17,761 nt of DNA from Porticoccaceae bacterium. GTDB taxonomy: Bacteria; Pseudomonadota; Gammaproteobacteria; Pseudomonadales; Porticoccaceae. The DNA is taken from positions 1 through 17,761 of the forward strand of contig NZXB01000044.1 of assembly GCA_002701765.1 (NCBI GenBank), read 5' to 3'. A program made the translations under genes and the position numbers. Positions 4,653 through 17,761 of the stretch are shown piece after piece (the first letter of the stretch is position 1; every line of letters starts with the position of its first letter). Below the pieces are notes generated by a model. The model did not search any database. It had not been told where the DNA came from and saw only the letters and a program-made list of their open reading frames with translations.

Positions 4653-7100
4653 CTACATTAGGGCTTTGGTGATTCCTGCCAATATGTTTTTCAACTTTTG
4701 AGTACGACGTTGCGCGATTTTCCCCGTAATTGGGTCTTCAATTGATTTTTGAAGAGCACTTATTTGTTCTGCGAGCCTTCGATCACCGCCCTTCTGCAAA
4801 GCTGGGTTAACTCTATCCAGTTTCCTGGAAATGTTTGCTGCAATCGTAATGTCGATGTCCCCGGAACGGGTTAACTGGTCGATATATGCCAGCGCAACTT
4901 CGGGTTTTTCGGGCCAGGTCATGGGCATTTGTTGTTGGGGGTTAAATGATCGATGGGGTCCAATTAATGGGTAGGCAAGAGCTGCAGCGGCAATCTCATT
5001 CTGACTTAGATATTCACTGGGCATTAGTTTTAATACATCAAGGCCTCGGGTGATTTCAGTCGCGTAGACAAAGCCCTCGTAGTAATAAACAGACCAGTAG
5101 CCGCCTGTGACGAGTTCGTCTTCCATGATGGGTCCACGATCAAAGTATGCTATCTCTTGAGGGTTTGACGAATCAGTAAAATCGACCACAGAGATACCAC
5201 CTTGGTACCAGGCTTGAACAAAGATGTCTCGGCCAGGGACAGGAATAATTGAACCATTATGGGCCACACAGTTTTCTGTTTCCAATTGCGGGGCCGGCAT
5301 TTTATAGTGACTCTTGAACTCAAGCCCACCGTCGATCAGGTCATAGATGGCATCTGCGCCCCAGTTCAGAGGGTCCCAAGCCCTGCACCGAGCTCGTCCG
5401 CCGCCGCCCCATTCGTCCGTAAACAACACTTTATTGCCTTCATTATTAAAAGTTGCTGAGTGCCAGTAGGCAAAGCCGTTATCGGTCACGACATCGAGTC
5501 GGGAAGGGTTCCTAGGGTCAGTGATATCGAAGAGAATACCATTACCTGAACAGGCTCCGGCGGCTATGTTTGCAGATGGAAATACTGTTATATCATGACA
5601 ATGGTCTGTGATATAGGTCTCTTGCGAATCATCACCATGATCGCCACCCCGCCAAAGGCCAGCAAGCATTCCTGTTTCCGAATCAGCAAAAACTGCCGGG
5701 CTATCGATTACTCGGGATTTTGCAGGGTTGTCCAGAGGGATTTCAATCACATCGATGCGAAAAAGTGCGGTCCGTTGATCACCGGGGACATCATCGATAC
5801 ACCCTTCTAGTTCTTTCTCTTCTCTGACGTCTCGAATGCCCGAATTATAAACAAGAATTTTACCTTTTGAAGAGGGATGACTTACCACCGAATGCGTGTG
5901 TGAACCGCGACAAGTCTGCACTGCACCAACTTGTTTGGGGAGACTCAAGTCCGAGATATCGAAGATACGTAATCCCTGAAAGCGATCCGGACTAGCATCA
6001 GAATTTACGCCTTCCAGACCGCAGTCAATTCGACTTCGACTTTGTTCTACCGAATAAATCAAAAGGTCTCCCACAACCGAAACATCACCTTGCCCGCCCG
6101 GGCATACCACAGAACTGAGAAGTCTTGGTAACCCTTCGTTATTAATCCGGTAAATATTGAAACCATGGTAGCTGCCGGTTACTAATATATCGTCACGGAA
6201 GGCCATGTCTGTATTTGCAAAACTAAGCATTGGGTAGCGCTTATTTTCTGCTTTCTCTTCAATAGTTTTCGATTCTTTCAGAGCCTTCTCTTTATCTTCT
6301 TCTTGCTTTTCAGCACCCTGGCCCGCGGGATTTTCTGGGTCAAAGAAGCCTTGAGGCTTGCGCTGGGATTCAACTAGTTGAAGATGAAGAATTGCTTCTT
6401 CGGCATCATATAGGCCAGCAGCCAAACCAGCCCTAGGATCGTTCGATAGACCAATTAGCAATACGTTCATTCGTTCAATTTCTACGGCCTGATCATTCAC
6501 TATATCTGAGGCAAACTCGTCTAAAATCGAGTCGAACGCTGAACCCGGTTGTTCTCTTAGGTCTTCAACCATCTCGATAGCACCGTCATGATGCGCTATC
6601 ATCAGATTTAGAAATAGACGATCGAACTCTTTACCGGTTGAATTTCCGAGTGAAGTCATTTGTTCCGGTGTTGCCATACCGGCCATGCCATGATGAGTGT
6701 TATGCGATTGCTCTGTGAAAGGATTGGGAGCTACTTCACTCCGCTCCTCAAGCCACTCTTGCATGAAAATTATTTCATCGGCCTGTGACGTGTCAATGCG
6801 CTTTGCTAGATCAACGATTTCCTTATTATTGGTATTTGAGTCTGCCAATTTGGCCATTAAAGTAGCTTGATGGTGGTGAAAGATCATGTCCTGAATGAAA
6901 CGCACGTCGTCTAAAGTGTAAGACGAATTGGCAATGCTCACAGCGGTCTCTGCATCAAGTAGTCGGGTGGTCTCTCCGGGCGCGCCTGGCTGAAGAATGG
7001 GTGCAGCAAAGGCGCTACAAGACGAAAGCAAAATGGAGCAAAGAAAACCGGCCAAGACCAAGACGGTAGACGGTTTAGGTGGATTGATTCTATGAGACAT
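4653..7100 (-). CDS. DUF305 + LVIVD-repeat lipoprotein
   Basis: About 815 residues. The N-terminus is a lipoprotein signal with lipobox LSSC (Cys about 28). Residues about 50-220 form a DUF305 domain: the histidine-rich helix DMIFHHHQATLMAKLA and the second motif LMIAHHDGAIEMVEDL are its two hallmark metal-candidate motifs. A charged Glu/Lys-rich linker (about 255-290) leads to LVIVD-type beta-propeller repeats, seen in recurring segments such as GLRIFDISDLSLPKQVG, NGILFDITDPRNPSRLD and GISVVDFTDSSNPQEIA. A helical tail ends the protein. DUF305 proteins are ferritin-like helical proteins linked in places to metal handling; LVIVD propellers are surface or periplasmic proteins of unknown role. 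The likely ATG at 7100 overlaps the MFS gene by 11 bases, so translation is probably coupled; an in-frame TTG lies at 7106. Function is not known. Confidence 0.85.
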   Translation of the reverse strand: MSHRINPPKPSTVLVLAGFLCSILLSSCSAFAAPILQPGAPGETTRLLDAETAVSIANSSYTLDDVRFIQDMIFHHHQATLMAKLADSNTNNKEIVDLAKRIDTSQADEIIFMQEWLEERSEVAPNPFTEQSHNTHHGMAGMATPEQMTSLGNSTGKEFDRLFLNLMIAHHDGAIEMVEDLREQPGSAFDSILDEFASDIVNDQAVEIERMNVLLIGLSNDPRAGLAAGLYDAEEAILHLQLVESQRKPQGFFDPENPAGQGAEKQEEDKEKALKESKTIEEKAENKRYPMLSFANTDMAFRDDILVTGSYHGFNIYRINNEGLPRLLSSVVCPGGQGDVSVVGDLLIYSVEQSRSRIDCGLEGVNSDASPDRFQGLRIFDISDLSLPKQVGAVQTCRGSHTHSVVSHPSSKGKILVYNSGIRDVREEKELEGCIDDVPGDQRTALFRIDVIEIPLDNPAKSRVIDSPAVFADSETGMLAGLWRGGDHGDDSQETYITDHCHDITVFPSANIAAGACSGNGILFDITDPRNPSRLDVVTDNGFAYWHSATFNNEGNKVLFTDEWGGGGRARCRAWDPLNWGADAIYDLIDGGLEFKSHYKMPAPQLETENCVAHNGSIIPVPGRDIFVQAWYQGGISVVDFTDSSNPQEIAYFDRGPIMEDELVTGGYWSVYYYEGFVYATEITRGLDVLKLMPSEYLSQNEIAAAALAYPLIGPHRSFNPQQQMPMTWPEKPEVALAYIDQLTRSGDIDITIAANISRKLDRVNPALQKGGDRRLAEQISALQKSIEDPITGKIAQRRTQKLKNILAGITKALM

Positions 7101-8307
7101 AAGCAAATTCCGGAATTTTCTTCCTGAATGTTAAGAACATATAAAAATAGATTCCCATCGCTAGGAGGGCTGCCCCAGAACACATCAAAAATATGCTGCT
7201 GTAGCCCAATTCAAAATCTAACAAGGATGCCGAAACAATTGGTCCTATTATTTGACCGAGGCCTTGAGCTGCGGGCATCATTGCGGCATATTTTCCAGCG
7301 ACATCGATATTGGCTATGGTGGACATCTGATAGACATCGATAAAAATCCATAATAAGTTGAATGAAAATACACTGACCAGCAGTGTTATATCATCGATTC
7401 CATTTGCTAATAATCCCACCGCGCATGCCATAGTGAAAAGCGCCACCAATAATGGCCTTATCAAACCAAATCGGTTGCTCAGAAGTGTGGCAAATGCGCA
7501 ACCAATGATGCTGCAGAATGATGACCAAACAAGTACCTGTCCGGTCCACGAGGGAGTTGCTGTGTCGCTTAATGCGGCAAGCTCAATGTAGGTCCAGTAT
7601 GAACCGATGTTGACATAGGTGATCACCATCGCGAGAAGACATAACCAGGGTACATACTTTGGTATTGTTGCTGAAATGCCATTCTCAATATGCGTCTGTG
7701 CGTCTGGAGCGCCGTTCTCTGCGTCCAGATCTTTCAATGCATGGGCAGGTATCCATCTAATGAATGGAACGGTCAGCATAAAGAAAAAGATAAAGACGCT
7801 ATAGATGCCAGACATCGATAGTAGTGGTAGGAAGTGGAGCTCAAGAGCCTGTGAGAAGGCGAATGCAAATAACATCGCATTATAGGCCAGCGCAGGTTTT
7901 GATGTTGCCCCTAGCGAAGAAACCGCGACAGCTGTATAAATGCCGCTGCCTAATCCTGCCAGAAGGCGCAAGTACAAAACTTGTTGATAATCTACCCAAC
8001 TAATGCAAAGCCAATTAGCTGTGACCGCGAGTAAGATGGCAAATATAACCATAAAACGGCGATTAAATCTGGATATAAAGAGTGAACTAATAAACGCCCC
8101 TAGTGACAAGCCGCCTAAGTCAGCTGCCGCCAAATAGCCTACCTCGACCTCCGAAAATCCGAGTAACTTGACCCAAGCGGTTGAGATCACAGGAATGCCA
8201 ACCAGGACGCCATATCCAACGAGCGTCATGTAGAGACTTATTCCGACCGACGTCCAATGGTCAAACGGAGATTTTGAGCTATTTTCATCGCTTTCTGCGG
8301 AATTCAC
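7090..8307 (-). CDS. MFS transporter, substrate unknown
   Basis: About 405 residues of mostly hydrophobic sequence with roughly twelve membrane segments, the usual size for the major facilitator superfamily. The loop between segments 2 and 3 has a degenerate MFS motif (GAFISSLFISRFNRRFMV). A charged cytoplasmic loop near the middle (HALKDLDAENGAPDAQTHIE) separates the two six-helix halves. The second half ends with QGLGQIIGPIVSASLLD. Overall it resembles YbfB/YjiJ-type or sugar/drug MFS proteins, but not closely enough to name a substrate. I prefer the GTG at 8307, with GGGAG 8 bases upstream; an in-frame TTG at 8349 would add 14 residues with little ribosome-site support. It overlaps the DUF305-LVIVD gene and lies about 126 bases after the thioesterase, so it may belong to the larger operon or be transcribed separately. 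Confidence 0.85.
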   Translation of the reverse strand: MNSAESDENSSKSPFDHWTSVGISLYMTLVGYGVLVGIPVISTAWVKLLGFSEVEVGYLAAADLGGLSLGAFISSLFISRFNRRFMVIFAILLAVTANWLCISWVDYQQVLYLRLLAGLGSGIYTAVAVSSLGATSKPALAYNAMLFAFAFSQALELHFLPLLSMSGIYSVFIFFFMLTVPFIRWIPAHALKDLDAENGAPDAQTHIENGISATIPKYVPWLCLLAMVITYVNIGSYWTYIELAALSDTATPSWTGQVLVWSSFCSIIGCAFATLLSNRFGLIRPLLVALFTMACAVGLLANGIDDITLLVSVFSFNLLWIFIDVYQMSTIANIDVAGKYAAMMPAAQGLGQIIGPIVSASLLDFELGYSSIFLMCSGAALLAMGIYFYMFLTFRKKIPEFAYVS

Positions 8308-8433
8308 ATGGAATCTCCCAAAATAATTTTCCAAGGGCCTTGTTTCCAATATCTCGGAGAAACCCCCTTTTTAACCAACTAAAAACTCGCTACAAATGGC
8401 CAATGAAGAACTTCTAAAAATCCATCTAGATTA

Positions 8434-8847
8434 TCAAGTCTCGATAAGATATTTTTGAGCTGTTGCTTTCATGGTTGACGTTATAGGTATTGCGGTCCGC
8501 GCTTCAAGGTCAAAATATACGCTGGTGCTCTCGAGCGTTGCTGCTAGTGCTTTTTTACTCACATTTTGCATCTCATAAAGCACAGTAATTGACTTGTTTC
8601 CAATCTTAAGCAGTTGTGCAGTGATCTCGAGCAAGTCACCTTCAGCTACTTCAGCTTGATATTCGATTACGTGACGAACGTCTGCCCATCCGGTTTTTTC
8701 TTTAGTTAGATGCTCGGCAGACCATCCAAAAACTGTGTGTAGGAAGTGATAAGAGCCATCATCAAACATCGCCACATAATGACGGGTCGTCATGTGTCCC
8801 ATAACATCGCATAGGTTTGGGTGGTTTATGCCTTTATATACAATCAT
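8434..8847 (-). CDS. Hotdog-fold acyl-CoA thioesterase, probable betainyl-CoA thioesterase
   Basis: A small hotdog-fold protein of 137-141 residues of the 4HBT type. The N-terminal motif HPNLCDVMGHMTTRHYVAMF holds the conserved catalytic Asp (about residue 14) followed by GHM, as in 4-hydroxybenzoyl-CoA thioesterase-like enzymes. The central helix precedes VRHVIEYQAEVAEGDLLEI, the usual beta strand and EGD turn. Family members hydrolyse acyl-CoA in the cytoplasm. Its place directly after a BKACE enzyme mirrors carnitine-degradation loci, where a hotdog enzyme (sometimes fused to carnitine dehydrogenase) hydrolyses betainyl-CoA to glycine betaine and CoA; I infer that role here. The start is uncertain: ATG at 8847 or GTG at 8859, neither with a strong ribosome site, so it may rely on coupling with the gene 11-23 bases upstream. 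Confidence 0.82.
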   Translation of the reverse strand: MIVYKGINHPNLCDVMGHMTTRHYVAMFDDGSYHFLHTVFGWSAEHLTKEKTGWADVRHVIEYQAEVAEGDLLEITAQLLKIGNKSITVLYEMQNVSKKALAATLESTSVYFDLEARTAIPITSTMKATAQKYLIET

Positions 8848-8870
8848 GATTAACAACACTGCCAGGTTGG

Positions 8871-9782
8871 TTAATGGAAACGCTTGAGGTTAAAGCTATC
8901 CCGCGCCTCTTGGGGCGATTGCACTTTACAGCCGATTAGCTCAAGTATATTGCGCGCTCGCTCGACTAGCTGAGCATTCGTGGCAAGCACTCCTCTGTCG
9001 AGGTAAAGGTTATCTTCAAGCCCTACCCGTGCATGTCCACCGAGCATGGCACTTTGCGCGACCATTGGCATTTCCAGCGCACCCAGAGCAAAAGCGCTCC
9101 AATTGGCCCCGTCAGGTAAATTATCAAGCATGGTCTGAAAATTTCGCGGCAGAGCTTCTGCGGCCCAACGGACATTTAGACAGATCTGGAATAGAGGGGG
9201 GCTATCTATAAGCCCTTCTTCAATCATCTGTTTGGCGAACCAAATATGTCCCAAATCAAACGTTTCTAACTCTGGCTTGACACCAATTTTCAGCAGCCTT
9301 TCGGCGCCTATGCGGAGCATGTTTGTTGACGAGATATAGACATAGTTATCAATAGGATAATTGAATGATCCGCAATCGAGGCTACATATTTCGGGTAAGA
9401 GTTCTTCCACATGTTCCATGCGCTCTACTTGGCCAACGCAATCCGTGGCCCCGTCGAAGTTAAGCGGATCGTCATCTGGGCCTAGGAACAAGTCGCCTCC
9501 CATGCCAGTGGTTAGGTTTATCACTACATCGGTACCGCTGCTTCGTATTCGATCAACGACCTCCCGATAGAGCGCAAGGTCCCTAGAGGGTGCTCCTGTA
9601 TCTGGATCTCTAACATGAATATGAGCGATAGCGGCACCCGCTTTTGCTGCGTCAATTGATGCATCCGCAATTTGCTTAGGCGTAATGGGCAGATGGGGTG
9701 TTTTACTGGCGGAATCGCCCGAGCCCGTAACTGCACAAGTGATTATGACAGACCGATTGATAGAGTTTATTGTAGAAGCCAC
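8871..9782 (-). CDS. BKACE family (DUF849) beta-keto acid cleavage enzyme, probable 3-dehydrocarnitine type
   Basis: 303 residues, normal for this TIM-barrel family. Its members condense a beta-keto acid with acetyl-CoA (or another acyl-CoA) and release acetoacetate and a new CoA ester. The metal-binding HIH (His54, His56, followed by VRDP) is present, as is the segment GGHARVGLEDNLYL. There Arg252, Glu256 and Asp257 match the spacing of the Arg, metal-ligand Glu and catalytic Asp of the 3-keto-5-aminohexanoate cleavage enzyme. Segments such as LDCGSFNY, LETFDLGHIWFAKQMI and WSAFALGALEMPMVAQ recall the dehydrocarnitine-cleaving branch as I remember it; this needs a tree. It starts with GTG, with AAGG 8 bases upstream. 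Genes on both sides (BCCT transporter, thioesterase) fit conversion of dehydrocarnitine to betainyl-CoA in the cytoplasm. Family is certain, substrate is not. Confidence 0.9.
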   Translation of the reverse strand: MASTINSINRSVIITCAVTGSGDSASKTPHLPITPKQIADASIDAAKAGAAIAHIHVRDPDTGAPSRDLALYREVVDRIRSSGTDVVINLTTGMGGDLFLGPDDDPLNFDGATDCVGQVERMEHVEELLPEICSLDCGSFNYPIDNYVYISSTNMLRIGAERLLKIGVKPELETFDLGHIWFAKQMIEEGLIDSPPLFQICLNVRWAAEALPRNFQTMLDNLPDGANWSAFALGALEMPMVAQSAMLGGHARVGLEDNLYLDRGVLATNAQLVERARNILELIGCKVQSPQEARDSFNLKRFH

Positions 9783-9809
9783 CTTTCGTACCTTATTATT
9801 TTAAGAAGT

Positions 9810-11354
9810 TTAAGTCTCTGCTTTTATCGCCAAGTGATGGTTATCTTCGCGGAGAGATCGCATCAATGATACACACATTAGTATCCCGACTGCTAGTAAA
9901 GGAAGAGATACGACAATAGTTGTGGCGAGAATTACTCGTTGACCCCCATCGACATACATGAGTGACAAAGGAAGAACGGCGAGAACTACGGCCCAAAAAA
10001 GACGTTGCCAACGAGCCGGATCCTCGGCGGCACGGAGTTCTTGCGTGGCCACAGAAGCAAGAGTATATGACGCGGAATCATATGTCGTTACCAAAAAAAC
10101 AATCGAGATAATACAAAACGCCGCCAGACAAATATTGCCAAGTGGCATCGACAGAAAAACCTGAGTTATTGCAAAAGATTCACTGTGTTCTCTCATGATT
10201 TCGGTAACATTTAATAGTTCGCTTATCTCAAGATGGAGAGCGTAGTTGCCTAAAATAATGAAGAAAAGACCCGCCCCCATACTTCCAAATACTAACATGC
10301 CCAAAATTACTTGACGTATTGTTCGACCATAGGAAATTCTCGCGACAAAAATACCGACGAAGGGAGCATATGCAACCCACCAGGCCCAGTAGAAAATTGT
10401 CCAACTCTCAATAAAACCACTATTGGCGATCGGGTCGGTCCAAGTATTCATTTTGAGGAAATTTTGCAGAACGAGACCAACACTGTTGGTACCTGTTTTT
10501 AGGATAAACAGCGTGGGGCCTGCGGTGAGGACAAAGGCTAAAAGTGCTAACGCAGCAATCATATTGAAATCAGATAGACGCTTTATACCTTTTTTAAGAC
10601 CCAGCCAGGCGCTGGTGGCAAAAATTACGACACAAAATAATACCAGCGACATCTCGAGAACGAAGTCGTGGGACAGGCCACTAAGTTCAGCTATACCTGC
10701 CGCAATCATCGGCGTGGCCAAGCCTAATGAGGTGCCCGTGCCGCCAATCAGATTTATCATAAATAGGAAATCAATGATTCGTCCTCGCTTGCTATTGATA
10801 CCTTTAGGGAGGAAATGAGAGCAGGCCGTACTCAGGCGTAGATAAGGAACCTTTTTTACATAGAAAGGATAGGCTATCGCCAGCGCAGGTAAGCAGTAGA
10901 TAGCCCAACCAGTAATTCCCCAATGAAATAATCCATAAGTGGCAGCCCATTCGATGGCCTCATTGGAACGGGGGGTCAAGTTGAAAGGTGGGCTATCAAT
11001 ATAGAACCCCCACTCAATAACTGACCAATATAACAGTCCGGCCCCAACTCCTGTGCAAAAGAGCATACCTGTCCAGCTGAATGTCGAGAATTCTGGCTGG
11101 CTGTCCGTCTCGCCTAGTTTGATAGAACCATATCTGCTGACCGCGAGGTAGGTAAGGAACACAAGAAGCGCCACGGCATACCAAATATAGAGTATGCCCA
11201 GGTTATCAGTGATGACGTCATAGGCTAAATTGATAGTCCTGCCTGCAGCCTCAGGAGCGCTGACGATGGGAATAGAAACTACTAACAGTGATGCGATGGT
11301 GGAAAAAAAAATGGTCCAGTCAACTCTCGAGATAGGTAACAAAGATTTAGTCAT
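9810..11354 (-). CDS. BCCT family betaine/carnitine-type transporter
   Basis: About 514 residues with some twelve membrane segments, typical of the betaine/carnitine/choline transporter family. The glycine-rich stretch GVGAGLLYWSVIEWGFYIDS and EWAATYGLFHWGITGWAIY closely resemble the carnitine antiporter CaiT. The substrate-box segment WTIFYWAWWVAYAPFVGIF, with Trp323, Trp325 and Trp326, would hold a quaternary ammonium head by cation-pi contacts, and the ARISYGRTIR sequence after it is the family signature. Two positions differ from CaiT in ways that suggest sodium coupling: a Val where CaiT has Met331, and an Asn in SDFN where CaiT appears to have Arg262. TTYDSAS lies at the region of the Na2 site. 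The ATG at 11354 overlaps the esterase stop by 8 bases; an ATG at 11381 lacks a ribosome site. Likely substrates are carnitine, betaine or an analogue. Confidence 0.92.
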   Translation of the reverse strand: MTKSLLPISRVDWTIFFSTIASLLVVSIPIVSAPEAAGRTINLAYDVITDNLGILYIWYAVALLVFLTYLAVSRYGSIKLGETDSQPEFSTFSWTGMLFCTGVGAGLLYWSVIEWGFYIDSPPFNLTPRSNEAIEWAATYGLFHWGITGWAIYCLPALAIAYPFYVKKVPYLRLSTACSHFLPKGINSKRGRIIDFLFMINLIGGTGTSLGLATPMIAAGIAELSGLSHDFVLEMSLVLFCVVIFATSAWLGLKKGIKRLSDFNMIAALALLAFVLTAGPTLFILKTGTNSVGLVLQNFLKMNTWTDPIANSGFIESWTIFYWAWWVAYAPFVGIFVARISYGRTIRQVILGMLVFGSMGAGLFFIILGNYALHLEISELLNVTEIMREHSESFAITQVFLSMPLGNICLAAFCIISIVFLVTTYDSASYTLASVATQELRAAEDPARWQRLFWAVVLAVLPLSLMYVDGGQRVILATTIVVSLPLLAVGILMCVSLMRSLREDNHHLAIKAET

Positions 11355-12948
11355 AAATTTCTTTTTCCATTGATGAGGCATAACGCGTTGGAGTCAAGAT
11401 TTCACAAAATGCGCTGCTTGTATGACGCCCGTTGCTAATATTCTTGTCGAGCACCTGCGTAAGTTTGGTGTTCTTATTATAGGCGGGCCAAACAGGCGTG
11501 TTATCAGGCGAGTTTGGATTGCCTGTTCGTGCAAAGCTAACCCAGTAATTCTGTATGATTTCAGAGAGTTTTCGATCATCATCGGTCGTAGGCAGCCAAT
11601 CATCATGCGTACCAAAAACGTAAGGTAACTCAGCACCATGATAAGAACCCATCGAGGCGGCAAGCTCTCCGATACGCTTGCGAGTGAAGCTATAAACCCA
11701 CGCTTGACCACCTTGAGAGGAAACTTTATCGGCAAGAAATAGAGATGGGCAAACGAATAAATTTGCAGTGATTAGCAGATCCATCTGTCGCCGCGAGTCG
11801 GAAACTCCATTGACCAAACCTTTTAATTTTCGTGACTCTTCAGGAGATACCGTCTCTTTCAACCAGCCATCTACATCTATTTCATCATCCAGATAAATAA
11901 GCCACTCGTCGTCGTTGGATCCTATCAATAGATCTACGTCGTGTATTTGGGTGTCGCTTACAGCATCAATCAAAGTGCTGGTAACGATTTTGCCATCGAT
12001 GACTGACTCGAAGTAATGGCCTTCATACGCCGATACCGACTGTTGCAGAATTTCCTCGGCAGGCAAAGTTCGCATTAGATCTATAACATCGTTCCTGCCC
12101 TCGCCAACGATCTGGCGGGCAAATAGCTCGCCACGTCGCAAGTGTTCAGGTCGGATAACCCCATTGGTCATTGACGAGCCCCCACTCTGAAGAATTGCTC
12201 TCCTGAACAGGCCTTCACCGAGCGGTGAAGCAAGCAGGTAGGCTACATGATCCGCTCCAAGTGACTCGCCCATGATGGTAACATTGGCAGGATCACCCCC
12301 AAAACTCTTAATGTTATCTCGGACCCATTCCAGGGCCATCACCTGATCTGAAAGTCCGAAATTAGTCTCCCCCAAAAAGGGGTGTGAAAAGAAACCGAAA
12401 ACACCCAAGCGATATGATATTCCTACAACAATAACATCTTTTTTGGCTAGATTATGGCCAAAGTAGTTTGGTTCGAAAGACCAGCCTCCCTTATTACTTC
12501 CTCCATGAATATAAACTATCACCGGGAGACCTTCCTCGAGTGGTTTCGAGGGGCGCCAGATATTAAGATAAAGGCAGTCTTCGCTCATCTCGGGTGCCGG
12601 AAAGGACTCAGGTTCTCCCCCGAAGCCGGCGATAACATCTCGGTACCATTCCACAATATGGGGAGTCTGCATACACGCCGAGGCAAATTGTTTCGCGGAA
12701 TATACATTGTGCTGCGCGACCCAAGCTTGCGGCGATCTCCATCTCAGTGGTCCGACAGGAGGCTGGGCAAAGGGAATCCCTTGAAAAGAGTCTACGCCAT
12801 CTGTAACAGATGTTGACCCTAGAAAGGTGACCTGATCTAACTTAACTTTAACCTCATTGTCAATTGGGTTGCATCCGCTTAGGGCAAGCAGACATGCTGT
12901 TGCCATATAGGTAAATGAAGAAAAAAAGTTCGAGCGTAAGAACTTCAT
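11347..12948 (-). CDS. Type-B carboxylesterase, predicted lipoprotein
   Basis: 533 residues, full length for a type-B carboxylesterase (alpha/beta hydrolase, cholinesterase-like). The signal sequence ends in lipobox LSGC (Cys26), so the enzyme is probably anchored at the periplasmic or outer-membrane side. The family signature SEDCLYLNIWRP is at 122-133 and the oxyanion-hole IHGGSN at 147-152. The catalytic triad looks intact: Ser229 in GESLGA, Glu348 in GSNDDEW, His437 in YHGAELPYVFG. The enzyme hydrolyses carboxylic esters; which one is not visible. In this operon, between oxidoreductases and a quaternary-amine transporter, it could split acyl esters of a choline- or carnitine-like compound before uptake, which is inference. 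Its ATG overlaps the stop of the preceding MDR gene (TAATG), with no strong ribosome site, suggesting coupled translation. Confidence 0.9.
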   Translation of the reverse strand: MKFLRSNFFSSFTYMATACLLALSGCNPIDNEVKVKLDQVTFLGSTSVTDGVDSFQGIPFAQPPVGPLRWRSPQAWVAQHNVYSAKQFASACMQTPHIVEWYRDVIAGFGGEPESFPAPEMSEDCLYLNIWRPSKPLEEGLPVIVYIHGGSNKGGWSFEPNYFGHNLAKKDVIVVGISYRLGVFGFFSHPFLGETNFGLSDQVMALEWVRDNIKSFGGDPANVTIMGESLGADHVAYLLASPLGEGLFRRAILQSGGSSMTNGVIRPEHLRRGELFARQIVGEGRNDVIDLMRTLPAEEILQQSVSAYEGHYFESVIDGKIVTSTLIDAVSDTQIHDVDLLIGSNDDEWLIYLDDEIDVDGWLKETVSPEESRKLKGLVNGVSDSRRQMDLLITANLFVCPSLFLADKVSSQGGQAWVYSFTRKRIGELAASMGSYHGAELPYVFGTHDDWLPTTDDDRKLSEIIQNYWVSFARTGNPNSPDNTPVWPAYNKNTKLTQVLDKNISNGRHTSSAFCEILTPTRYASSMEKEIYD

Positions 12949-13934
12949 TAGCTAGTGTCTACCACCACACAACCTCTTAGGCCGGGCGATTCAATAAGTT
13001 GATGGGCTTGAGGAAGAGATTCGAGGGGCACAGTCTTAGCTATTCGATGCCTAAGAAGGTTTCTTTCAAGCGCTTTAGTAATATCGCCGACGGCCAGGGC
13101 CTTTGCGGCTTCAGGCATGGAATATACTATAACCATTCGAACGGTCAGGTCCATATACATCATCTGTAAAAAAGGCAGTTGTGGCTGTTTGACCAGTGTG
13201 GAAGAGTAGGTAGCGATCGTTCCATTGACCGCAATGCATTCAAGAATTTCAGGCAGATTGGCTCCGAACTCGACCTCTATTACTCTTGATATTTTTTTTC
13301 CACCTGTGCAATCTAGGACCTTTTTACTCCAATCCGGTTCCCGGTGATTAACGACCCCTGACGCACCAAGCTTGATGCAGAGCGCCTTATCTTCCATATT
13401 GCTTGCGGTCGCAATTACCTTGGCGCCAGCCATTTTTGCCCATTGAATCGCATAGTAGCCAACACGACCGGCGCCACCAGTAACCAAGATCCAATGATCC
13501 TTCACATCTCCATCAGAGTGCACACATCGATGAGCGGTCATCGCGGGTATCCCTAAACACGCACCTACATCGAAGTCAGTATTATCGGGCAACGATACGG
13601 CTCGGTTTGAATCGAGGGCAACATATTCCGCTGCTGTTCCCAAAGAACGGGCAAACTGTGCCTGATAAACCCAGACTCTCTCTCCCACTCTACTATTAGC
13701 GACCTTGTCTCCCACGGCTTCAATGACCCCAGCCCCATCGCTATGAGGTATCACGGGGCCATCCTTAAGTAGGTTAGGGAATGCTCCGGCCCGCTTTTTA
13801 ACATCAGATGGGTTTACGCCACTTGTTTGTAGCCTAACTAGAACCTCTCCCGGTCCAGCTTGGGGTTTGGTCTGTTCGCCGACTCGAATCACATCTTTGG
13901 CATTTCCAAACGCTTCAAACCATGCCGCTTTCAT
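12948..13934 (-). CDS. NADPH:quinone oxidoreductase-like MDR protein
   Basis: 328 residues, the standard length of zeta-crystallin-like MDR enzymes. The N-terminal GroES-like domain carries PGEVLVRLQTSGVNPSDVKKRAG and IPHSDGAGVIEAVG. The Rossmann fold starts at VTGGAGRVGYYAIQWAKMAG (about 151-170), the NADPH-binding motif. Zinc-binding cysteines are absent, so reduction of a quinone, enone or enoyl compound with NADPH is expected in the cytoplasm. The ribosome site AGGAGG is the strongest in the window and overlaps the stop codon of the upstream SDR. Its job in the operon is unclear: it might reduce an unsaturated intermediate (for example a crotonobetaine-like compound) or a released side product. 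It differs strongly from the other MDR at 1317-2456, so the two are not recent duplicates. Confidence 0.87.
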   Translation of the reverse strand: MKAAWFEAFGNAKDVIRVGEQTKPQAGPGEVLVRLQTSGVNPSDVKKRAGAFPNLLKDGPVIPHSDGAGVIEAVGDKVANSRVGERVWVYQAQFARSLGTAAEYVALDSNRAVSLPDNTDFDVGACLGIPAMTAHRCVHSDGDVKDHWILVTGGAGRVGYYAIQWAKMAGAKVIATASNMEDKALCIKLGASGVVNHREPDWSKKVLDCTGGKKISRVIEVEFGANLPEILECIAVNGTIATYSSTLVKQPQLPFLQMMYMDLTVRMVIVYSMPEAAKALAVGDITKALERNLLRHRIAKTVPLESLPQAHQLIESPGLRGCVVVDTS

Positions 13935-13939
13935 TTTTT

Positions 13940-13945
13940 CCTCCT
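13940..13945 (-). promoter_or_regulatory. Strong Shine-Dalgarno site AGGAGG for the MDR gene
   Basis: The minus strand reads CTAGGAGGAAAAAATG. AGGAGG lies 5 bases before the ATG at 13934 and overlaps the TAG stop of the SDR gene. This fixes the start of the MDR gene. Most neighbouring genes have weaker sites. Confidence 0.8.
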
Positions 13946-14747
13946 AGCCAGTAAATTTCTCTGCCTTGTAGTCAAACCAGTTTGATAACCCTTCTGTGTG
14001 ACCGTCAAGTGAGATTGCTTGTCCTGATATGTGTTTACCTGATTTTGAACAGAGAAATAACGCCATTTGTGCGACATCTTCTGCTTCTACAAAAACTCTT
14101 AATGAATTTTGCCTAAGGTATGTCTCGCGAATGTTGTCTACAGTTGTGTCTCTCTGTCTAGCGTCATTGGCAATTACACTTTCTATCCTCGGGCCATTTA
14201 CACTACCTGGGCATATCGCATTGACCCTCACTCCAAATGGCCCCAGTTCCATTGCCCAAGTTTTGGTGAGGCCAATCATAGCCCATTTTGCGGCCACATA
14301 AGGGGATCGGAGGGGAAAACCAAACAATGCAGCCGTAGATGCTATGTTTACCATGCAGCCACTTGAAGCTTTTAGAAGAGGGGCCGACCTCCTAGAGACA
14401 TAGAAAAAACCGTTTAGATCAACGTTCAGGGTATGTTTCCAATCTTCTGGTTCAATGTCCTCAAGTGCTGCAGTTGGTCCGGCAATCCCCACGTTATTAA
14501 CCACCACATCAAGCTGCCCATAAAGCCTATCTATGTCATTAAAAACTTGATCAACATCATCTAAATTGGATACATCCGCCAAAGTTGAGCTTATCTTTGG
14601 TATCTCGCTTGTCGCTGACTGTATCGCTTGGCTCGATATATCGCAAATATGCACTTGGGCGCCTGCAGACAAAAACGCCTCAGAAATTGCCCACCCAATT
14701 CCTGACGCGCCAGCCGTTACCAACACAGTTTTTTCTGATAGGTCCAT
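13944..14747 (-). CDS. Short-chain dehydrogenase/reductase, probable NAD-dependent alcohol dehydrogenase
   Basis: 267 residues, a classical SDR. The cofactor motif TAGASGIG is at 11-18. Asp36 at the end of the second strand (HICD) favours NAD over NADP. NNVG occupies 84-87 in place of the common NNAG, and the catalytic set is Asn108, Ser137 (NIAS), Tyr150 and Lys154 (YVAAK). PGSVNGPRI follows, then a C-terminus SLDGHTEGL like many SDRs. Such enzymes oxidise secondary alcohols to ketones, or the reverse, in the cytoplasm. Because the same operon has a BKACE enzyme that needs a beta-keto acid, I infer that this SDR makes it from a beta-hydroxy acid such as L-carnitine, replacing the unrelated carnitine dehydrogenase usual elsewhere. 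It follows the amidohydrolase stop by 7 bases and has only a weak ribosome site. Confidence 0.9.
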   Translation of the reverse strand: MDLSEKTVLVTAGASGIGWAISEAFLSAGAQVHICDISSQAIQSATSEIPKISSTLADVSNLDDVDQVFNDIDRLYGQLDVVVNNVGIAGPTAALEDIEPEDWKHTLNVDLNGFFYVSRRSAPLLKASSGCMVNIASTAALFGFPLRSPYVAAKWAMIGLTKTWAMELGPFGVRVNAICPGSVNGPRIESVIANDARQRDTTVDNIRETYLRQNSLRVFVEAEDVAQMALFLCSKSGKHISGQAISLDGHTEGLSNWFDYKAEKFTG

Positions 14748-14754
14748 AATAGAA

Positions 14755-16074
14755 TTATTGCCCCAGCTCGTTTTTTATGATCTGTCCGTTTTTCATAACG
14801 AACAAGGGTTGTTCAAGGGCTGATATGTTTTCAAGAGGGTTACCTGGCACCGCAATGATATCAGCAAGTTTGCCAACTTCAATGCTACCGATCCGATCTT
14901 CCCACTGTAATAGCTCAGCGCCCACAATGGTACCAGCTTTAATTGCATCCATGGGGCTCATACCCGCTTCAATGAGGGTCGCGAATTCGCGAGCACAAAC
15001 ACTCGATTCAATCATTGGTCCGCATAGGTCCGAGCCCACCGCGATCTTGACTCCGGACAGATGTGCTTTGCCAATCAACTTTAGCCATGACGCTCTTAAG
15101 GACAGATAAAATTCATCATTCTTTGTTTGCTCCCGTAACTTGCCGCTATGTGCGTAGTAATCACCAACGTAGATCGTCGGAACTAAAAATGTCCCATGTT
15201 TTACCATTAGGTCGATCGACTTTTGATTGATAAAGCTTCCGTGCTCAATCGATCGAACCCCCGCAATAATCGCTTGATTTATGCCCTCTGTTGCATGCGC
15301 ATGCGCGGCCACGGGTACGTTTTGTCTATTTGCTTCTGCCACAGCGGCGTTTAGCTCCTCAGGGCTAAATGAAACATTTTTTGGATTATCGCCCACTGAC
15401 ATAAAGGCACCCGTGACCATAATCTTAATCCAGTCGGACCCATACTTAATTTCTTTTCGAATTGCCTTGCGAATCTCATCTGCCCCGTCAACTATCAACC
15501 CATCTGAGATCACGTGTTGCTCGGGAGATAGATAATTAATATCACCCCCGCCGCCAGTTATCGAAATGTAATGGGCGGCACCGGTTAAACGCGGGCCTGA
15601 AAACACGCCTTCGTCAATGATCCTCTTCAGATCCTGAACCGCATAGAAGACGTCTGCGTCACCCATAACTCGGATGGTAGTCCAACCCGCAAGCAATAGG
15701 TTTTGGAGGTTAGATAAACCAAGGAGAGCTTTGTAAGCCGAAGATGCCTCCAAGTGACCGTTTTGATAGTCATGTTTGTAGATCATAGGATGTTCATGAA
15801 CGTTAATCATGCCGGGCATCAACATGGTTCCTGGCAGATCAATTGTTAAAGCTTCAGGGGGAATTTCACTTTCGTTGACAACAGCAGTTATGACATTTCT
15901 GTTTACCAGGACTGCTTTGTTTTTGAGAACCTTTGCAGATATCCCGTCAATTACTGCATCCGATACCAGTGCATATGTGGTTGTCGATTCTGAATAAAGC
16001 AAAGGACTTATCCAAAAAACAGTTAACATAAAACCGATAAAGGTTATTCTTTGGTTGACCGATCTATGCTTCAT
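14755..16074 (-). CDS. Exported metal-dependent amidohydrolase (imidazolonepropionase/prolidase-like)
   Basis: About 439 residues from the preferred ATG at 16074; an ATG at 16113 would add 13. The protein starts with a signal peptide (MKHRSVNQR, then ITFIGFMLTVFWISPLLYS), which suits the 16074 start. It is an amidohydrolase-superfamily TIM barrel with a binuclear metal site. Numbered from the longer start, the ligands are HEH at 106-108 (INVHEHPM), a probable carboxylated Lys230 (WIKIMVTG), His271/His273 (AAHAHAT), His291 (SIEHGSF) and Asp362 (VGSDL). The C-terminal GSIEVGKLADIIAV closes the beta-sandwich, as in imidazolonepropionase-like and Xaa-Pro/Xaa-Arg dipeptidase-like members. It would cleave an amide, peptide, lactam or ester bond, probably in the periplasm. 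As first gene of the operon it may release the transported compound from a conjugate. Substrate unknown. Confidence 0.87.
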   Translation of the reverse strand: MKHRSVNQRITFIGFMLTVFWISPLLYSESTTTYALVSDAVIDGISAKVLKNKAVLVNRNVITAVVNESEIPPEALTIDLPGTMLMPGMINVHEHPMIYKHDYQNGHLEASSAYKALLGLSNLQNLLLAGWTTIRVMGDADVFYAVQDLKRIIDEGVFSGPRLTGAAHYISITGGGGDINYLSPEQHVISDGLIVDGADEIRKAIRKEIKYGSDWIKIMVTGAFMSVGDNPKNVSFSPEELNAAVAEANRQNVPVAAHAHATEGINQAIIAGVRSIEHGSFINQKSIDLMVKHGTFLVPTIYVGDYYAHSGKLREQTKNDEFYLSLRASWLKLIGKAHLSGVKIAVGSDLCGPMIESSVCAREFATLIEAGMSPMDAIKAGTIVGAELLQWEDRIGSIEVGKLADIIAVPGNPLENISALEQPLFVMKNGQIIKNELGQ

Positions 16075-16113
16075 ATTGACTTTTTCATATTTGAAGGTGA
16101 CGAAGGTTTTCAT

Positions 16114-16328: not shown

Positions 16329-17761
16329 TTGGCAGGCAATGATCAAAGGCGTATATTTGAACGCGTCATATCGCTCCTGAAAAGTGGTGATCTTGAACAA
16401 GCGGAGTCGCTTTGTAGAGAGCAGTTGCTTGAGGACCCTCAAGAGGTGAATTTTTTATCGATTCTGGGATCCATTTTGCTGCGCAAGAATGATTTTGAGC
16501 GGAGCGAAAAAATCATGCGAACTGTCGTTCAAATAGCACCAGAATATCCCAACGCCCAGGAAGATCTTGGGACAGTGCTAATGAACCTCAAAAAGTGGGA
16601 AGAAGCTCTGCCTTTTCTGCAAGAAGCTATCAAATCAAAGCCAAATAGTGCCGGAGCATTTTTTAAGCTGGGAGGGGCACTCAAAAGCTTAGGGCGACAC
16701 GAGGCGGGCGATGCAGCCCTTGCGCATGCAGCGAAGCTCTCTCCAATGCAAGCAAATTTGGAAAAGGCCACGAAGCTTTTTGCCGAAGAAAAGTACCGCG
16801 AGTCAGAAGTAGCCGCCAAAGCGGTACTTGCAGATAATCCAAAGGATGTTAATGCTGGTCTGTTGCTGGCGCGTATTGCAATTCACGCGCGCGCATACAA
16901 AGAAGCCGAAAAACTCTTAAGGAAAGTTGTTGAGTATGCGCCTAGATTTACTCTTGCATGGCATGAATTGGGAGCCGCTTTACGAGAGCAGCATAAAGAT
17001 CAAGAGGCTGCAGAGGCCATGGAAGTTGCGCTTCAGATGGACCCGAACGATTCGACCACTCACTATCAATATGGCGCTGCTTTAGCGATGGCCGGTCGAA
17101 CCGAAGAAGCTGCGCAAGCTTATAGGCGCGCGGTGGAGATTGATCCCAAGCAGGCGGGCGCTTATGTGGGCTTGGGGCACGTCCTAAAGACCCTCGGAGA
17201 TCAGACCGGGGGGATTGCTGCGTACAGAGCAGCAATAAAGCTAAAACCAAATCTGGGAGAGATTTACTTTAGCTTGTCGAACCTCAAAACATTTCGTTTT
17301 ACCGCTGATGAGATTGACGACATGATGAAGCGTATTGGGCAAGAATCATTGCCGAGTGCTTCCGTTGTGCACTTTGCATTCACCTTGGGTAAGGCCTTTG
17401 AGGACAATGGAGACTATGATCGGGCCTTTGAGTACTATATTCAGGCTAATGAGGAGAATCGAAAGTCGATAATATATGATCCAGTTCAGACAGAAGTTGC
17501 GCATAGAAAGATGAAAGAAACTTTTAGCGCTGAATTTTTCGAGCGTATCAACGAATCACACACAGGCATCAAAGACCCTGCTCCGATTTTTATTGTGGGC
17601 CTTCCGAGATCGGGCTCTACCCTCATAGAGCAGATACTTGCCAGCCACAGTCTGGTTGAGGGTACTAGCGAGTTACCCGATTTGGGAATTGTTTCCCAGA
17701 TGATATCAAATAAACAAAAAGGCAGAGTTTTTCCGGGCGGTATTCTTGAGATGAGCGATTT
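16329..17761 (+). CDS. TPR-repeat sulfotransferase, cut by the window end
   Basis: An open frame of at least 477 codons that runs off the right edge. The first 330 or so residues are tandem tetratricopeptide repeats, visible as helical pairs with the usual small residues and Pro at repeat ends, such as AWHELGAALREQHKDQEAAE and AYRRAVEIDPKQAGAYVGLG. From about residue 418 the P-loop-like motif IFIVGLPRSGSTLIEQILAS appears, the 5'-phosphosulfate-binding loop of PAPS-dependent sulfotransferases, followed by EGTSELPDL, also typical. The remaining catalytic domain lies beyond the window. It would transfer sulfate from PAPS to a carbohydrate, lipid, peptide or small molecule; the TPR part may bind the acceptor. 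An in-frame stop at 16305 bounds the start region, so TTG at 16329 is the likely start, with GGAGG at 16312-16316 and a long 12-base spacer. Confidence 0.88.
   Translation, partial: MAGNDQRRIFERVISLLKSGDLEQAESLCREQLLEDPQEVNFLSILGSILLRKNDFERSEKIMRTVVQIAPEYPNAQEDLGTVLMNLKKWEEALPFLQEAIKSKPNSAGAFFKLGGALKSLGRHEAGDAALAHAAKLSPMQANLEKATKLFAEEKYRESEVAAKAVLADNPKDVNAGLLLARIAIHARAYKEAEKLLRKVVEYAPRFTLAWHELGAALREQHKDQEAAEAMEVALQMDPNDSTTHYQYGAALAMAGRTEEAAQAYRRAVEIDPKQAGAYVGLGHVLKTLGDQTGGIAAYRAAIKLKPNLGEIYFSLSNLKTFRFTADEIDDMMKRIGQESLPSASVVHFAFTLGKAFEDNGDYDRAFEYYIQANEENRKSIIYDPVQTEVAHRKMKETFSAEFFERINESHTGIKDPAPIFIVGLPRSGSTLIEQILASHSLVEGTSELPDLGIVSQMISNKQKGRVFPGGILEMSD

Follow-up and report, generated by a model that had tools for sequence, protein, structure and literature searches.

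Which enzyme makes the beta-keto acid when a carnitine-type degradation locus holds no classical carnitine dehydrogenase (CDH)? The question is raised by a stretch of 17,761 nucleotides from a marine Porticoccaceae bacterium (contig NZXB01000044.1, hereafter the window). Its minus strand encodes a hotdog thioesterase (8434..8859; PF13279, 68 bits), a beta-keto acid cleavage enzyme (BKACE, 8871..9782; PF05853, 313.9 bits against a cut-off of 24.8), a BCCT transporter with DddT as its closest solved relative (9810..11381; PF02028, 508.3 bits), and a short-chain dehydrogenase/reductase (SDR) of 267 aa with an NAD-type Asp36 (13944..14747; PF13561, 182.5 bits), the proposed carnitine dehydrogenase. 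An earlier note on this DNA had placed these four genes together and had suggested that the SDR could be a non-homologous replacement of CDH. Family profiles confirm all four genes at these positions, and there is indeed no CDH gene among the open reading frames of the window. We give about an even chance to the reading that the locus catabolises carnitine, probably partly as an O-acyl ester, and that the SDR replaces the unrelated CDH of the 3-hydroxyacyl-CoA dehydrogenase type. Judged from the genomes, there appears to be a good case for the SDR as the substitute for CDH in such a carnitine-type route.

In this proposal, an exported esterase would, by analogy, free carnitine from an O-acyl ester, the BCCT would import the carnitine, and the SDR would oxidise it with NAD to 3-dehydrocarnitine. 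The BKACE would then use acetyl-CoA to convert 3-dehydrocarnitine to glycine-betainyl-CoA and acetoacetate, and the thioesterase would release glycine betaine, which may be used by a corrinoid methyltransferase/dimethylglycine-dehydrogenase-type cluster in another part of the genome. The derivation of glycine-betainyl-CoA from dehydrocarnitine is established BKACE chemistry. We infer the reactions, the substrate, its L-configuration and the substrate of the esterase from what was observed, namely gene content, the lack of CDH matches, co-occurrence and trees.

Search for the classical carnitine dehydrogenase

A whole-genome search for CDH, proposed in the earlier note as a check, gave no match at 1e-40 to the model NF005716 in the window's own genome, of which the assembly is 78.6% complete; the best match reached only 3.6e-19. 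PF02737 had one strong match there, a 718-aa frame (197.8 bits) that is FadB-type by its length, and four others of at most 25.6 bits. In the class search, NF005716 scored 345.6 to 714.1 bits at 13 places elsewhere. No CDH was found at 1e-40 in three genomes of the same genus that share the window-type BKACE (92, 74, and 68% complete), nor in the nearly complete genomes G393, G422, G458, G167, G804, and G675. The classical route does belong to the family's repertoire, since six loci from another of its genera (L069–L074) pair a BKACE at 49–51% identity with CDH.

Co-occurrence of BKACE, SDR and CDH

We compared 42 genomes with a window-type BKACE, 41 from the BKACE clade described below and that of L122 (68%); L103 and L106 were left out, and L122 and L134 were included. 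A relative of the window SDR was detected in 37 of the 42 at 1e-60 and in 34 at 1e-72. At the latter threshold, it was detected in six of 369 genomes of the class sample, including the window's own, and in 10 of 398 genomes of the phylum sample; at 1e-80, six of 244 genomes in the order sample were positive. The background samples were scored on 6 to 10 candidates per genome (seven in the class sample), against up to 51 in the 42-genome set, and may therefore miss some SDRs. The enrichment over the class sample was strong (Fisher p ~1e-36, uncorrected for kinship). A CDH match at 1e-40 was lacking in 34 of the 42 genomes and present in eight.

In a set of 24 genomes chosen for an SDR, a window-type BKACE or (G051) a CDH operon, CDH was found at 1e-40 in none of the 10 with a BKACE at least 70% identical to the window's (several of these are also among the 42) and in all nine with a BKACE at 50–58%. 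The other five comprised two (BKACE 38–43%) with a CDH-like match and three with neither. Among 274 genomes of the class sample, both with a BKACE of at least 70% (the window's own and G167) had no CDH at 1e-40, and 12 of the 13 others with a BKACE at 44–59% had a CDH of at least 345 bits, G120 being the exception. In G060, CDH is present with no BKACE at 1e-60; its BKACE sits at a contig start.

Two further arrangements were observed. In two BKACE operons (L080:4728-5435, and L081), SDR and CDH are separated by a gene of the Asp/Glu racemase family. In 20 SAR11 and other alphaproteobacterial loci (L145, L146, L148–L165; BKACE 54–56%), an SDR at 39–47% was present in 19 and CDH in 10.

Phylogeny and residues of the BKACE

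The window BKACE carries H54, H56, R252, E256, and D257, invariant in 29 aligned sequences; we take the HxH, R, and ED residues to have metal-binding and catalytic roles. A tree of 106 BKACE proteins placed it within a clade of 49 rows (SH-aLRT support 99), of which 18 had an SDR nearby, 31 had neither dehydrogenase, and none had a CDH neighbor, counted at an identity of at least 34%. The other 57 rows had CDH (18), CDH and SDR (14), SDR (17) or neither (eight). A separate CDH-linked clade of 15 rows was recovered with support of 98 (11 with CDH, three with CDH and SDR, one with neither), and other CDH-linked branches exist. The nearest rows outside the window's clade, L141 and L144, are CDH-linked and join it at a fork with support of 94; their genomes contain CDH and no SDR at 1e-60. 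Provided the substrate is unchanged, this pattern would be the expected trace of a CDH replacement at the base of the clade. The placement had been another check proposed: in this tree, which held no experimentally assayed BKACE, the window protein did not join a branch whose substrate is proven to be a different one.

The BKACE and SDR trees were built by a quick method with SH-aLRT support only, and long branches were flagged. The BKACE tree excludes loci L066–L068 (apparently the same genomes as L086–L088), L103, and L106, as well as L122 and L130, which did not pass the frame-length filter or had no full frame. From the SDR tree, ten SAR11/Glaciecola near-copies were removed.

The SDR protein

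The SDR is complete and NAD-type, as the earlier note had read it: the Gly motif (G16, G18), Asp36 and the Ser137-Tyr150-Lys154 triad are all present. These residues are invariant in 73 aligned SDRs (the module, CDH-operon, Rhodospirillaceae, and SAR11 groups), as are R147, W155, R187, and others. Arg147 and Trp155 occur in all 46 SDRs of the module, that is, window-type SDRs with their neighbors, compared with 1/11 and 0/11 generic SDRs, respectively. We considered the two residues as pathway markers and rejected them: among eight SDRs outside the four linked groups, Arg147 was found in all eight and Trp155 in seven, and the residues thus mark a subfamily, not a pathway. A more distantly related BKACE lies near three of the eight (L076, L178, L183).

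Arg147, three residues before the catalytic Tyr, aligns with a Lys of the 3-hydroxybutyrate dehydrogenase 3v2h that presumably binds the substrate carboxylate. Position 182, a Tyr in 3v2h to which we likewise ascribe a role, is Ser in 45 of the 46 module SDRs and Cys in one; in the remaining three linked groups it is Ser, Thr or Ala, and in the eight SDRs outside the linked groups it varies (Leu, Pro, Ile, Thr, Ser, Ala). A small residue here would leave room for a trimethylammonium group. The closest solved SDR is 5unl (233.6 bits; '3-ketoacyl-ACP reductase' is the depositors' name only), which shares the residues at Arg147, Trp155, and Arg187. Two narrower FabG equivalogs were not reached (176.4 against 296 and 150.8 against 297.75 bits). 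After the best-scoring NCBIfam model, a broad FabG subfamily, came TIGR01963 (198 bits, cut-off 307.05) and PRK12429 (197 bits, cut-off 258), and no 3-hydroxybutyrate model at its cut-off was present among the best 25 models listed. The window SDR resembles 3-hydroxybutyrate dehydrogenase in its fold, its NAD-type cofactor site and probably in acting on a free beta-hydroxy acid, but it falls below the model cut-offs and two pocket positions (Ser182, Arg147) are changed.

Evidence for the product and comparison with known systems

Were glycine betaine the product of the thioesterase, the BKACE would have to act on 3-dehydrocarnitine, and carnitine would precede it. Dimethylglycine-dehydrogenase-type genes (DAO + GCV_T) were found near BKACE and thioesterase genes in five loci (L098, L113, L119, L120, L121) and also at L122, and MTTB-type genes near BKACE in L113, L120, and L121. 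L098 additionally holds SDR, esterase, and BCCT genes, and L122 an SDR. In the window's own genome (G000:C91), a gene for an 837-aa dimethylglycine-dehydrogenase-type protein is followed by genes for MTTB (749 bits), a B12-binding protein, DUF1638, a pterin-binding methyltransferase, and RACo, a cluster that would fit the use of glycine betaine or of a similar methylated amine. The dimethylglycine-dehydrogenase-type and MTTB genes point to glycine betaine and hence to dehydrocarnitine.

The thioesterase matches the fused CDH-thioesterase PRK07531/NF005716 over model positions 354–471 of 495 (42.6 bits, E 3.3e-11). The fused system and the window share this related thioesterase domain and a BKACE (CDH-adjoining BKACEs are 46–61% identical to the window's) but differ in that no 3-hydroxyacyl-CoA-dehydrogenase-type CDH was found in the window locus or its genome. 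In the Pseudomonas aeruginosa pathway, cdhA encodes the dehydrogenase, cdhC the BKACE, and cdhB the thioesterase. The operon is caiX-cdhCAB-hocS, and its HocS is a short-chain acylcarnitine hydrolase (PMC5806209). Like that operon, the window would combine a dehydrogenase, BKACE, thioesterase, and acylcarnitine hydrolase in one route to glycine betaine; unlike it, the window has an SDR as the dehydrogenase, an exported cholinesterase-type esterase, a BCCT instead of an ABC transporter, and an additional medium-chain dehydrogenase/reductase (MDR). No SDR described as a carnitine dehydrogenase was found among the titles and abstract openings listed in searches of the open-licence literature.

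Weighing the explanations

A number of observations weigh against carnitine as the substrate or the SDR as its dehydrogenase. At 1e-60, the SDR is missing from five of the 42 clade genomes, and G1082 (762 bits) and G1088 (530 bits) hold both the SDR and a strong CDH. Six further clade genomes have a CDH-like match of 176–267 bits; for scale, CDHs beside BKACE score about 346 bits or more in the class search and the SAR11 CDH scores 282. The locus of L098, a clade member, includes a CDH-like frame of 25% identity, below the 34% threshold. In four BKACE operons (L080, L081, L139, L177), the SDR stands beside CDH, which mere replacement does not explain. The window BKACE falls outside the main CDH-linked branch, as sister to a CDH-linked pair, and three columns are fixed differently from the CDH group (Thr92/Ala, Ser134/Thr, Tyr142/Phe), compared with 80 of 303 columns that are conserved and alike in both groups (47 clade and 16 CDH-linked sequences). 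A window-type BKACE is found in only four of 14 genomes of the same genus, the other 10 having no BKACE match. Close relatives of the SDR also occur away from the window BKACE type (L178, L180, L182–L184, L188, L189), and G485 has the module with neither BKACE nor CDH at 1e-40. The SDR just passes the broad FabG subfamily model NF009466 (222.9 against 222 bits). The BCCT is nearest to the dimethylsulfoniopropionate (DMSP) importer DddT (522.9 bits, compared with 271.5 for CaiT), and five nearly complete genomes with a window-type BKACE (G393, G422, G458, G804, G675) have no dimethylglycine-dehydrogenase type at 1e-40. The proposal of the earlier note therefore stands in part: co-occurrence and the locus data favor a non-homologous replacement, and the position of the BKACE outside the main CDH branch, the operons with both dehydrogenases and the DddT-like BCCT count against it.

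The point on which the reading of the SDR mainly turns is the enantiomer that it would oxidise. The SDR may be a dehydrogenase for D-carnitine, or a D-configured beta-hydroxy betaine, while CDH takes the L-form, both yielding 3-dehydrocarnitine; we regard this as unlikely. The four operons that combine SDR, CDH, and BKACE are as expected for the use of two enantiomers, and the (R)-acid is the substrate of the related 3-hydroxybutyrate dehydrogenases. Spatially, (R)-3-hydroxybutyrate corresponds to D-carnitine, and classical CDH acts on the L-form. D-carnitine is rare in nature, however, and the 34 clade genomes without CDH at 1e-40 would use the D-form only. The esterase suggests natural L-acylcarnitines, and the pocket residues differ from those of 3-hydroxybutyrate dehydrogenase, so either orientation of binding is possible. 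In favor of this alternative, PMC2131755 names a D-carnitine dehydrogenase activity.

The closeness of the BCCT to DddT makes a sulfonium substrate possible, and the substrate may be another beta-hydroxy zwitterion such as the sulfonium osmolyte gonyol, from which BKACE and thioesterase would release DMSP. In that case, the SDR would form the beta-keto acid, the BKACE would yield DMSP-CoA and acetoacetate, and the thioesterase would free DMSP. We consider this quite unlikely. We also think it very unlikely that the SDR, MDR, esterase, BCCT, BKACE, and thioesterase together form a marine pathway for esters of some sulfonium or ammonium osmolyte with a beta-hydroxy group, e.g., gonyol, instead of L-carnitine. 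Several hosts belong to genera that we take to be marine, and the BKACE, with its three fixed differences, forms part of a clade of its own. The nearest BKACEs outside that clade are CDH-linked, though, and dimethylglycine-dehydrogenase-type and MTTB genes lie near the BKACE of some clade members and occur in the window's own genome. The transporter speaks on both sides. Residues for entry and binding have been named in DddT, where the change Y112F abolished activity (PMC13270143). The window BCCT keeps 10 of the 12 named residues (W105, W140, S204, G101, W313, F316, Y317, W320, W321, Y324) and does not reach the CaiT equivalog PRK03356 (418.7 against 541 bits). It differs from DddT in having Phe at Tyr112 and Gly at Ala99 and in its carnitine-like gene company; position 112 is Tyr in 15 and Phe in 12 of 30 module BCCTs.

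Alternatively, the SDR may be a 3-hydroxybutyrate dehydrogenase or a FabG-like reductase for other beta-hydroxy acids, for example, acting on the acetoacetate made by the BKACE, and carnitine may be oxidized by another enzyme, perhaps the MDR. The ranking of models (the FabG subfamily, then TIGR01963 and PRK12429) is in line with this, as is the MDR being the most constant neighbor of the SDR. It appears a very doubtful explanation, given the scores of TIGR01963 and PRK12429 below their cut-offs, the two changed family-typical positions (Ser182, Arg147) and the SDRs without an adjoining MDR listed below. Finally, a classical CDH may lie in the unassembled part of the genome, the SDR doing something unrelated. 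The incomplete assembly and the two clade genomes with both SDR and strong CDH would allow for it, but the three genomes of the same genus and the six nearly complete genomes also have no CDH at 1e-40, and we think it highly improbable.

The SDR module and its neighbors

Returning to the proposed carnitine route, the gene between SDR and esterase encodes the MDR, of quinone-oxidoreductase type (12948..13934, minus strand; ADH_zinc_N, ADH_N). Its nearest model is PIG3 quinone reductase (138 bits, below the cut-off), and no catalytic zinc motif was seen by eye. The esterase (11347..12948, minus strand) is a cholinesterase-like PF00135 carboxylesterase (357.8 bits) with a lipobox-like start, a putative acyl ester hydrolase. 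Its best solved chain is 6emi, Cholinesterase (225.5 bits), and its best solved relatives are cholinesterases and p-nitrobenzyl esterase; an acylcarnitine hydrolase is suggested by analogy only.

Within eight genes of the 46 module SDRs we counted MDR 38 times (directly adjoining in 37), BCCT 29, esterase 26, BKACE (at least 60%) 19, TonB receptor 15, LysR 13, and CDH 0 times. Contig ends cut some neighborhoods, and these counts are lower bounds. The idea that SDR and BKACE always share one operon was rejected, as genomes with no SDR at the BKACE locus were found to carry it elsewhere; the 19 stretches concerned contained MDR in 18, BCCT in 10, and esterase in five. In Woeseiaceae and the like, the set is SDR-MDR-BCCT without the esterase. 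TonB-SDR-(MDR)-esterase-BCCT-BKACE-thioesterase genes stand in one row in Marinicauda, Oceanicaulis, and Hyphomonas beringensis. The MDR was not seen beside the SDR in L089, L090, L098, L105, and L122, nor in the Rhodospirillaceae SDR-BKACE pairs, and therefore seems less essential.

G818 has the SDR module and neither BKACE nor CDH at 1e-40, and two PF01144 CoA-transferase genes adjoin the module (L176:15888-17312). DhcAB belong to the CoA-transferase family. The pair fits a beta-keto acid product, although an acetoacetate transferase would look alike, and a CoA-transferase route replacing BKACE is possible in this genome. For P. aeruginosa, PMC12482172 names a route for dehydrocarnitine by DhcAB.

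A TauD-family dioxygenase gene occurs near BKACE in Woeseiaceae and relatives (L109–L111, L114–L118, L124, L128). We dropped it as a gamma-butyrobetaine hydroxylase; the best solved match of the one member searched was 1y0z (50.8 bits).

Locus layout and flanking genes

The run of seven minus-strand genes begins with an amidohydrolase with a signal-like N-terminus (14755..16113; open reading frame and family profile). The gaps from amidohydrolase to thioesterase are 7, 9, −1, −35, 27, and 11 bases, and since they are short or overlapping, the run is likely a single operon. That the grouping is more than chance follows from its being found again in other taxa. The genes named in the earlier note were all recovered; the MDR, the esterase, and the amidohydrolase had been overlooked. 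The amidohydrolase holds the same position only within the genus, with relatives of 33% (L224) and 31% (L227) near the module. Downstream of the thioesterase and on the same strand lie an MFS transporter (7090..8349; open reading frame and family profile) and a DUF305 protein. The MFS gene also follows the thioesterase in L086 and L087 and is nearby in L088, and a 57% relative occurs near the module in L227.

The DUF305 protein (4653-7106, 817 aa) combines this domain with a choice-of-anchor-B-like region (43.1 bits, below the model cut-off of 100). On the opposite strand, positions 16329-17759 encode a TPR protein whose C-terminus, by eye, resembles a sulfotransferase, here without a TonB receptor; such a protein accompanies the TonB receptor of the module in several taxa (L091, L101, L171–L173, L175, L176). 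Scans for promoters (26 against 19.2) and terminators (14 against 12.8) were near shuffled level, and no tandem repeats were found in the scan. Genes were called with a custom script using a longest-frame rule, which may miss short or overlapping genes. The host assembly comprises 2.07 Mb in 104 contigs, and the closest named loci are from Porticoccaceae.

Implications

Were gonyol the substrate, the locus would link gonyol to the DMSP pool. If the carnitine reading is true, the esterase would be a candidate enzyme for environmental acylcarnitines, the SDR would provide a candidate gene for D-carnitine dehydrogenase activity, and an SDR subfamily amenable to a simple assay would become a candidate carnitine dehydrogenase. 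Carnitine breakdown in such bacteria would then be invisible to searches for the classical dehydrogenase.

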